Both the position numbers and the translations under genes were made by a program. Below are positions 13,335-16,180 of a DNA stretch of 64,000 nucleotides, piece by piece. The DNA is from Serratia grimesii NBRC 13537 (lineage in GTDB: Bacteria; Pseudomonadota; Gammaproteobacteria; Enterobacterales; Enterobacteriaceae): contig NZ_BCTT01000020.1 of the NCBI RefSeq assembly GCF_001590905.1, positions 1 to 64,000 on the forward strand, read 5' to 3'. The notes under the pieces were generated by a model. That model was not told the DNA's origin. It did no database searches and saw nothing but the letters and a program-made list of their open reading frames with translations. Positions within the stretch are counted from its first letter, which is position 1. Each line of letters opens with the position of its first letter.

Positions 13335-14384
13335 TCACTGACGAATAGGCAGGTAAACCGAGAATTCGGTATGTCCTGGCCAACTGTTAAATTCAATTTT
13401 TCCGCAATGTTGATCAATAAGATTACGGGCGATGGATAAACCCAGGCCGGTTCCGCCTTCGCGGCCGCTGACCATTGGGTAAAACAGCGTGTCTTGTAAC
13501 TGCGCCGGCACGCCGGGGCCGTCATCTTCTATATCAATACGTGCTGCCAGCCGATAACGGCTGCCATGCAGGGTGATCTGGAATGCGGTGCGGGTGCGTA
13601 ACGTGATGGTGCCGCCAGCCGGTCCCAGTGCCTGCAGAGCGTTACGGGTAATGTTCAGCAGAACCTGTTCGATTTGATCCGGGTCGTGCGCCATTTCCGG
13701 TAGGCTGGGGTCATAATCACGTACCAGCGTCACGTTATCCGGTTTTTCCAGTGCCACCAGTTGGCAAACGCGTTCTGCGACCTGATGAATACTTTGGGTA
13801 ATGTGCTGGCCAGGCCGTTGTGGGCCCAGCAGACGATCAACCAGATTGCGCAGGCGATCGGCCTGTTCAATGATGACCTTGGTGTATTCGGTCAGTGATG
13901 GATCTGGAAGCGCCTTGGCCAGCAATTGTGCCGCGCCCCGTAAGCCACCAAGTGGATTTTTGATTTCATGTGCCAGACCACGTACCAAATCGCGAGCGGC
14001 AACTTGTTGTGCGTGTTGTAACTGTTCCTGACTCAGGCGGCGTTGGTTATCCATCGGCGCCAGCTCGACCAAGATATAACCTTCAGGCAACGCCTGGGCG
14101 GTCAAAGAGAGGATGTGCGCACGTCCGTCAACCACCAGGGTCACTTCGTTATCGGTAAAGCCCTGACCGGCGCGCAGGCTCTCACGCATCAAATCGACGT
14201 TCAGTGAGAAGTAGCCGAGCAGATCGGGTAAAGGCGTACCGAAAAGTTTACGAGAACTCTGTGCCAGCAGTTGTTGTGCTGCCGGATTGGCGTAATGAAC
14301 CGCCAGCGAATCATCTAACAGCAAAATGCTGTTAATGAGCGAATTGAGGATCTGCCCTGCGTCGGGCAGCTTGCCAGTTGCCAT
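13335..14384 (-). CDS. glnL: Nitrogen regulation sensor kinase NtrB (GlnL)
   Basis: A 349-aa cytoplasmic histidine kinase/phosphatase for NtrC, controlled by PII (GlnB). It has an N-terminal PAS domain (about 1-110), an H-box [10 protein letters not shown] with the phosphorylated His near residue 139, and N, G1 and G2 ATP-binding boxes ([22 protein letters not shown]). Length equals E. coli NtrB. Its leader is unusual: a 127-bp repeat ends one base before the start codon and supplies the apparent ribosome binding site (AAGGG). An NtrC site lies just upstream of that repeat. Confidence 0.98.
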
Positions 14385-14385
14385 A

Positions 14386-14512
14386 TATGCCCTTCATCTT
14401 TCAAGACGCAGCGTTGTTGGCTGCTCTTACTCACACCAGTCACTTGGCAGACCAAGCTCCTGTCGGTTCGCTCGGTTGCCGCCTAGCTGCACCTTGAAAT
14501 TAATTGGGCATA
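14386..14512 (-). repeat. Imperfect-palindrome intergenic repeat (MITE-like), copy 1
   Basis: A 127-bp element with 7-bp perfect terminal inverted repeats TATGCCC / GGGCATA and a subterminal pair TTTCAAG…CTTGAAA. It resembles a repeat widespread in Serratia/Yersinia intergenic regions, and shares ends and interior (TTTCAAG-TGCAGC-AGGCGG) with the copy at 54164. As glnL leader RNA, its two ends would pair and bury the AAGGG ribosome binding site. Confidence 0.85.
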
Positions 14513-14521
14513 GCAGACGAC

Positions 14522-14538
14522 TGCACCTTTTTAGTGCA
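14522..14538. promoter_or_regulatory. NtrC binding site at the glnL promoter
   Basis: TGCACC-TTTTT-AGTGCA matches the NtrC consensus (TGCACNNNNNNNGTGCA). In E. coli an NtrC site at this place represses the internal glnL promoter. The site lies between glnA and the repeat that precedes glnL. Confidence 0.8.
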
Positions 14539-14600
14539 TTTATCCTACTCCATCCGTCATGTACGCGGTATGGAATAGTTTTGCAGAAAATATGGTGGAG

Positions 14601-14623
14601 AAAAAAACCCATCCGAAGATGGG
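14601..14623 (-). terminator. Rho-independent terminator of glnA
   Basis: On the minus strand CCCATC-TTCG-GATGGG, a UUCG-capped stem, is followed by seven U. A second GC-rich stem (GCGCCGTC / GACGGCGC, 14665-14684) lies closer to the glnA stop. Read-through would feed glnL-glnG. The 3' UTR between the stop and this terminator is where E. coli makes the sRNA GlnZ. Confidence 0.88.
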
Positions 14624-14692
14624 CAGAAAGTTTCCACGGCAACAAAAAAGACAACTAAATCTGGGCGCCGTCCGCAGACGGCGCGGTAAAAC

Positions 14693-16102
14693 TTAAACGC
14701 TGTAGTACAGTTCGAATTCAACCGGGTGTGGTGTCATGCGAACGCGATCCATTTCTTCTTTACGCAGGTCGATGTAAGCGTCGATAGCGTCGTCTGTGAA
14801 TACGCCGCCACGGGTCAGGAACTCGCGGTCTTCGCTTAATGCAGCCAGCGCTTCATCCAGGGAACCTGCAACTTTTGGAATTTCAGCTTCTTCTTCCGGT
14901 GGCAGGTCATACAGGTTTTTATCCATGGCATCGCCAGGGTGGATTTTATTAATCACACCGTCCAGGCCAGCCATCAGCAGCGCCGCGAAGCACAGGTATG
15001 GGTTAGCGGCTGGATCAGGGAAGCGAGCTTCGATACGACGTGCTTTCGGGCTGGCTACCACTGGAATACGGATAGAAGCAGAGCGGTTGCGGGCGGAGTA
15101 AGCCAGCATGACCGGTGCTTCGTAACCTGGGACCAGACGCTTGTAAGAGTTGGTGGTCGGGTTGGCCAGGGCATTGATGGCTTTAGCGTGCTTGATGATA
15201 CCGCCGATGTAGAACAGAGCAGTTTCAGACAGGCCGCCGTATTTGTCACCAGCGAACAGGTTAGTGCCGTTCTTGGACAAAGACATGTGGCAGTGCATAC
15301 CAGAACCGTTATCACCGAACATCGGCTTCGGCATGAAGGTCGCAGTTTTGCCAAATGCGTGAGCCACGTTGTGAACCACGTATTTGTAGATTTGGATTTC
15401 GTCGGCTTTTTTGGTCATGGTGTTGAAGCGGGTTGCCACTTCGTTCTGACCTGCAGTTGCCACTTCGTGATGGTGTGCTTCAACAACCAGACCCATTTCT
15501 TCCATGGTCAAACACATGGTAGAGCGAATGTCTTGTGAAGAGTCGACAGGAGGAACTGGGAAGTAGCCGCCTTTAACTGCCGGACGGTGGCCTTTGTTGC
15601 CGCCATCGTATTTGGTGCCTGAGTTCCATGCGCCTTCGATATCGTCGATAGCCACGTGGGAACCACGGATGCTGCTGCCGAAACGAATGTCATCGAACAG
15701 GAAGAATTCTGGCTCTGGCCCGAACAGGACAGTGTCCGCGATACCGGATGAACGCAGGAAGTCTTCTGCACGCTTAGAAATGGAACGCGGGTCACGGTCG
15801 TAGCCCTGCATGGTGCCTGGCTCAAGGATGTCGCAGCGAATAATCAGGGTGGATTCTTCGAAGAACGGATCCAATACTGCCGTGCTGGCGTCTGGCATCA
15901 GTACCATGTCAGATTCGTTGATACCTTTCCAACCGCCGATCGAGGAGCCGTCAAACATTTTACCTTCTTCGAAGAAGTCGGCATTCACCTGATGAGCAGG
16001 GATGGTGACGTGTTGTTCTTTACCCTTGGTGTCAGTGAAACGCAGGTCTACGAATTTCACTTCATGCTCATTCAGCATCGTCAAAACGTGTTCAGCGGAC
16101 AT
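14693..16102 (-). CDS. glnA: Glutamine synthetase, type I
   Basis: A 469-aa cytoplasmic enzyme that makes glutamine from glutamate, ammonia and ATP, working as a dodecamer. It has the beta-grasp domain (about 15-100), then metal- and glutamate-binding segments such as MHCHMS. The adenylylated Tyr lies in NLYDLPPEE near residue 398. Its length equals E. coli GlnA. ATG 16102 (MSAEHVL) is the family start; an extension to 16126 is spurious. It is the first gene of glnALG, driven by a sigma-54 promoter at 16181-16200. Confidence 0.99.
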
Positions 16103-16180
16103 ACTTAACTCTCCCGGATTTATCATTGTCGTCGTCGTGGAACGAATCTGTGAAACTGGCTTTTTTTGCCTTGAAAAGAC

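Follow-up and report, generated by a model that had tools for sequence, protein, structure and literature searches.

Within the window, the whole 64,000-nucleotide stretch of Serratia grimesii NBRC 13537 DNA that was analysed, glnL is immediately preceded by a genuine ERIC element, and comparison of this site among related genomes makes it highly probable, as a joint reading, that the element was inserted at a TA dinucleotide, that its tail became the glnL ribosome-binding site, that the native Shine-Dalgarno (SD) sequence decayed, and that the rest of the element drifted.

The sequence of events would have begun in an ancestor of the Serratia-type bacteria with an ERIC insertion into a TA immediately upstream of the glnL start codon. 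The insertion would have separated the native SD (AGGAG) from the ATG by more than 100 nt and placed AAGGG, carried by the ERIC right tail (GAAGGGCATA), 5 nt before the ATG, where it could act as a ribosome-binding site. The native SD would have decayed afterwards; with the tail retained, the remainder of the element could then drift or undergo deletion. Ribosomes would then use AAGGG, selection would maintain it, and the present patchy distribution would reflect the exchange of two alleles between species.

Identity and placement of the element

The open reading frame downstream of the element was identified as NtrB by alignment of residues 1–349 to positions 1–349 of the NCBIfam profile NF008293. 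Read on the minus strand, the repeat runs TATGCCC...GGGCATA over 127 nt, and a single base (14385, T) separates it from the glnL start codon; both these coordinates and the predicted fold agree with the original prediction of a palindromic repeat that stops one base short of the ATG. Its location between an NtrC-like site and the start codon was likewise borne out by the coordinates (Table 1), the site being called NtrC-like by its resemblance to the NtrC motif. The repeat occupies nearly all of the stretch from that site to the ATG, although its description as the whole glnL leader would depend on where the transcript starts.

Folding of the repeat as RNA returned a minimum free energy of −53.1 kcal/mol (z = −4.76, with none of 200 shuffled sequences as good), in a structure comprising a 7-bp terminal stem plus a UUUCAAG/CUUGAAA stem, and thus the long RNA hairpin characteristic of ERIC. 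The length of about 127 bp accords with the family consensus, and the glnL copy was placed among 65 copies. Elsewhere in the same genome, no fewer than 40 other sequences matched ERIC at E ≤ 0.01 (at least 41 with the glnL copy; 40 of 77 candidates scored), and the near-full copies among the matches scored are 68–84% identical. Together with the empty sites found in relatives, these features and additional copies upheld the earlier claim that the repeat is of a mobile type. The 7-bp terminal inverted repeats with TA ends (TATGCCC/GGGCATA) and the overall size also agree with ERIC as tabulated in the relevant part of the review PMC2229807. The element is therefore alike to the ERIC (IRU, RU-1) sequences of enterobacteria in its 127 bp, its 7-bp terminal repeats, its TA ends, its long hairpin and its many copies. 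An Rfam search returned sub-threshold matches only, including one at 14390–14513 to the Vibrio antisense RNA V_AS5 (29.3 bits against a cut-off of 96), possibly because the V_AS5 family contains ERIC-like sequence.

Table 1. Features of the glnA–glnL region of the window, and of the uvrB start in the same genome.
Feature	Position	Strand	Remarks
glnL (NtrB)	13335..14384	−	ATG at 14384–14382; open reading frame and profile match
ERIC element, 127 bp	14386..14512	−	Right end facing glnL; TA at both termini; empty sites in relatives
ERIC right tail GATGAAGGGCATA	14386..14398	−	AAGGGCATATATG identical in 11/11 carriers; AAGGG, putative glnL SD, 5 nt before ATG
Left terminal repeat TATGCCC	14506..14512	−	Predicted partner of GGGCATA; altered in 3/11 and deleted in 4/11 carriers
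Decayed native SD site	14518..14522	−	AGTCG here, AGGAG in empty relatives
NtrC-like palindrome TGCACTAAAAAGGTGCA	14522..14538	−	Sequence only; similar sequence in relatives' spacers
Terminator-like stem	14607..14624	−	glnA 3' UTR, upstream of glnL leader; compare GlnZ (in part of PMC9731577)
glnA (glutamine synthetase)	14693..16126	−	
uvrB start, directly after ERIC right-tail remnant	G000:C6:38759-38779		L279, L457

A block of the glnA 3' UTR at 14595–14660 (GTTGCCGTGGAAAC...terminator) recurs in the spacers of relatives and corresponds by position to the E. coli GlnZ sRNA; a sub-threshold Rfam match to Ysr49 spans 14601–14712. In E. coli, according to the sections of PMC9731577 concerned, a moderate terminator stands upstream of glnLp, and swapping glnA 3' UTRs left the NtrC level nearly unchanged. 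An out-of-frame AUG within the ERIC tail (14395–14397) would start a 21-codon frame overlapping the glnL start; it is missing in G014 and G442, where GATAAA stands instead.

Empty sites and distribution among relatives

The site before glnL was compared in 40 Serratia-type genomes from four GTDB genera (30 in g1, seven in g102, two in g41, one in g56). An ERIC or its remnant was found in 11 of these: G000, G026, G014 and G028 (g1), G442, G440, G323 and G441 (g102), G214 and G069 (g41), and G084 (g56). A further 27 were empty, 24 in g1 (among them G017, with a broken glnL) and three in g102, and two (G005, G009) were not read. In G001, G012 and G022, the empty site reads GCAGGAGTCTGC-TA-TATGG (CTGC-TA-TATGG), as against GCAGTCGTCTGC-TA-TGCCC...GGGCA-TA-TATGG for the occupied site of the window; the remaining empty g1 genomes have CTGCTGTATGG or CTGCCGTATGG at this position. 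The conserved glnA 3' UTR block is separated from glnL by 137 nt in the empty G001, G011 and H1w and by 262 nt in the carriers G000, G026, G014 and G028, an increase of 125 nt that is expected of a TA insertion because 127 nt replaces a TA. Comparison of the spacer across relatives, as proposed with the original prediction, thereby located the empty site, 125 nt shorter without the element, together with the TA target duplication typical of ERIC.

No ERIC tail was found in the stretch inspected before glnL in 64 named loci not titled Serratia (L076–L117 and L119–L140). The pattern AAGGGCATATATGRC, with one mismatch allowed, was present in 85 of 392 genomes, at much the same rate as its reversed control; its matches were accordingly set aside as mostly chance, and it served only to locate the carriers G084, G069, G214 and G323.

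Native and probable ERIC-derived ribosome-binding sites

The native AGGAG, 8 nt before the ATG, is intact in all 27 empty genomes, whereas in all 11 carriers it is changed, into seven different sequences: AGTCG (four genomes), AAAGCG (two), and AGAGCG, AGAAG, AGCAA, AGAAA and AGGAA (one each), the last, in G441, being degraded in part only. All 11 carriers retain the ERIC tail AAGGGCATATATG, including G323 and G441, in which the hairpin is gone and some 20–25 nt of the ERIC right end are left. Since these two genomes share a deletion junction, one or two deletions were involved. In G214 and G069, the 5' arm was lost through a separate deletion, again with retention of the tail.

GAAGGGC was the best anti-SD match within the 20 nt scanned before the glnL ATG, a result that, with the contrasting states of the native SD, sustains the earlier proposal that the last bases of the repeat supply the SD. 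From the change of the native SD in carriers, its integrity in empty genomes and the retention of the tail, it follows that the ERIC tail is very probably the glnL ribosome-binding site. An N-terminal extension of glnL through the ERIC was considered and ruled out, since an in-frame TGA or TAA lies four codons upstream of the start in every carrier. By calculated duplex energy with the anti-SD, the ERIC tail (−4.4 to −4.5 kcal/mol) is weaker than the SDs of 13 empty relatives (−6.9 to −7.4 kcal/mol), and an altered rate of glnL initiation is therefore plausible; in G440, there is a further upstream anti-SD match of −6.8 kcal/mol.

The association between SD state and ERIC presence gave p = 8e-10 by Fisher's test on genomes with kinship ignored, a value that overstates independence, given that on the glnL tree (44 rows) all five independent carrier/empty contrasts agree yet yield a sign-test p of only 0.0625. 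AAGGG stands at the right end in 11/11 glnL carriers compared with 27/53 other ERIC copies (Fisher p = 0.002, kinship likewise ignored). Two independent pairs of glnL elements showed 16 differences in the left 20 nt, a count inflated by a left-end indel in G440, and three in the right 20 nt; in 12 other ERIC pairs, some of them redundant and two themselves at gene starts (holC, polB), the left and right differences numbered 25 and 15 respectively, a distribution that did not depart significantly from that of the glnL pairs (p = 0.13).

Origin and history of the insertion

On the glnL tree, the carriers do not form a clade (six changes; AU p = 2e-5): G014 has the empty G011 and G029 as its nearest neighbours, and G028 has the empty G025. 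Such a split would be expected had separate insertions struck a hot spot, the same TA, in several species, rather than one insertion having been exchanged or lost. The elements themselves make this unlikely: the seven near-full glnL copies cluster together among the 65 ERICs, albeit with modest support (94/53), the terminal GGGCATA is present in all 11 carriers and in none of 58 other ERIC copies, and the four g1 carriers share AGTCG and, at the start of glnL, CCCGACGCA, which is found also in the empty G025. The ERICs of G014 and G000 differ at 5 of 127 sites, and their glnL genes at 0.31 of four-fold sites. Over its first 100 nt, the glnL of G014 is 97% identical to that of G026 and 93% to that of G011, and also 97% to that of the empty G025. 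We infer that the glnL copies descend from one insertion, since exchanged between species and now scattered.

Predicted hairpin and accessibility of the probable ERIC-derived SD

It has also been proposed that the terminal repeats bury the SD, so that the ERIC hairpin would be a selected translational switch setting NtrB output. Folding of the leader indeed predicted a stable hairpin with a terminal stem, the mean pair probability of which was 0.83–0.98 in the near-identical copies of the g1 carriers G000, G026, G014 and G028, and the fold z-score given above points the same way, although ERIC elements in general form a long hairpin. Elsewhere the stem was weak or variable, at 0.40–0.43 in G084, at most 0.14 in G440, and 0.00–0.89 in G442 depending on the amount of coding sequence folded. 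The conserved pairing expected of an SD-sequestering switch was absent, the 5' pairing arm being deleted in four of the 11 carriers and altered in three more, among them G442, where G-U pairing persists. SD openness, computed with 60 nt of coding sequence included, was 0.28–0.59 in the 11 carriers, overlapping the 0.17–0.76 of 13 empty relatives. Burial is thus strongly predicted in four near-identical copies only and impossible in the four that have lost the arm; a conserved translational switch is therefore unsupported, and burial as a conserved means of control was rejected on the arm losses, the uneven stem probabilities and the openness shared with empty relatives. That the hairpin is kept for control is not supported by these data, and a selected switch is accordingly considered very unlikely.

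That the ERIC is a passive insertion whose chief effect is on mRNA stability (through an RNase E site in the right terminal repeat), with incidental overlap of the start site, appears very improbable too, since this effect of ERIC, published for Yersinia according to the passages concerned in the reviews PMC2229807 and PMC10969869, leaves unexplained the change of the native SD in 11/11 carriers and the retention of the tail alone.

Recurrence at other genes

Supply of an SD by the ERIC right end may extend beyond glnL, the same arrangement being found at other genes. The sample of other ERICs comprised 196 loci with 222 right ends (134 distinct flanks) and 217 left ends (119 distinct), and consisted of the best-scoring matches listed, selected for their similarity to the glnL copy; the clustering of flanks is approximate. 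Start positions of genes were assigned by eye, in part from E. coli N-termini, and one member per gene family was verified by NCBIfam profile. Among the loci listed, holC, polB, maf, mdtD and a LacI-type gene have start codons −4 to +7 nt from an ERIC right end; two further cases, uvrB in the same genome as the window and lpxB in G242, came from pattern searches. The best NCBIfam matches (one member each) start at protein residues 1–5 and profile positions 1–3, those of HolC and the LacI-type protein falling below the curated cut-offs.

The distance from AAGGG to the ATG is 5 nt for glnL and for holC in g1. It is 3 nt, a spacing that is short for an SD, for uvrB, polB, lpxB, the LacI-type gene and holC in g102. 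The start of maf lies 3 nt past the ERIC right end in three genus genomes; AAGGG is 7 nt before the ATG in one of these (L325), and AAAGG is found in the other two (L346, L350). At mdtD, the weaker SD ACGAG stands in place of AAGGG. The uvrB leader ends in an ERIC right tail in four of 27 readable genus genomes (G000, G001, G011, G029) and differs in the other 23, so that close relatives differ in leader, as at glnL; in these four, ERIC model positions 88 to 124–127 directly precede the start codon (E 7e-6 to 2e-4, weak values owing to the shortness of the match).

Among the loci listed, miaE alone provided a profile-supported start at an ERIC left end, 6–7 nt downstream in six loci (L342, L344, L345, L359, L363, L450). 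Orientation bias was not significant, with five families per 134 distinct right flanks compared with one (miaE) per 119 left flanks in the loci listed (p = 0.22), or 7:1 families, right versus left, when glnL was omitted (p = 0.07). A pattern of right end plus TG gave 19 matches in 4/246 genomes and that of left end plus TG 22 matches in 9/246; raw counts therefore show no orientation bias. Open reading frames of at least 80 aa followed in 3/19 and 3/22 cases respectively: on the right, the UvrB and LpxB starts were profile-supported, L278 lying outside that check, and on the left none of the three looked like a true start on inspection by eye. An earlier pattern (15/392 genomes), which required a separate ATG after ATA and so missed the TATATG class, yielded 30 loci, of which 20 lacked an open reading frame of 80 aa and three of the other ten were glnL. 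In two loci outside Serratia, L230 (a weak AAA-domain match below cut-off) and L241 (an ABC transporter), an ERIC right end lies close enough to an ATG to supply an SD; these possible further cases were left uncounted, as were the fliE-containing L245 and the unsure candidates at hscA, argB, fliL-like, phnE and gcvT.

There is about an even chance that the ERIC right end acts as a portable ribosome-binding site, TA insertion in one orientation setting AAGGG 3–7 nt before an ATG, with the host gene coming to depend on it and at times the tail alone surviving, in an arrangement repeated at glnL, uvrB, holC, polB, maf, the LacI-type gene and lpxB (with a weaker SD at mdtD), and with both alleles circulating between species.

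Relation to known systems and significance

The roles of ERIC named in the relevant parts of PMC2229807 and PMC10969869 are mRNA stability and the contribution of open reading frames, including in-frame fusion; supply of an SD, with decay of the native one as proposed for glnL, is not named in those parts. Variation in spacer length and an insertion between strains also occur in the E. coli glnA–glnLG spacer (GlnZ types; part of PMC9731577), but those variants lie in the glnA 3' UTR and leave the NtrC level unchanged, whereas in Serratia the element separates the native SD from the ATG. None of the literature titles listed concerned ERIC supplying an SD; the main 2005/2006 ERIC papers lay outside this comparison, and an earlier report is possible. 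The Correia elements of Neisseria are, to our knowledge, unrelated to ERIC in sequence. They are likewise small mobile repeats that alter the expression of neighbouring genes, in their case through RNase III cleavage (part of PMC10969869).

Closely related species carry two alternative alleles of a single gene start, with a different ribosome-binding site in each, which offers a natural before-and-after comparison of the takeover of a mobile repeat by its host. This makes it possible to test the translational exaptation of a common bacterial repeat at a central nitrogen sensor gene and at DNA-repair and replication genes. If true, the reading set out here would show how translation initiation can be rewired by mobile repeats.
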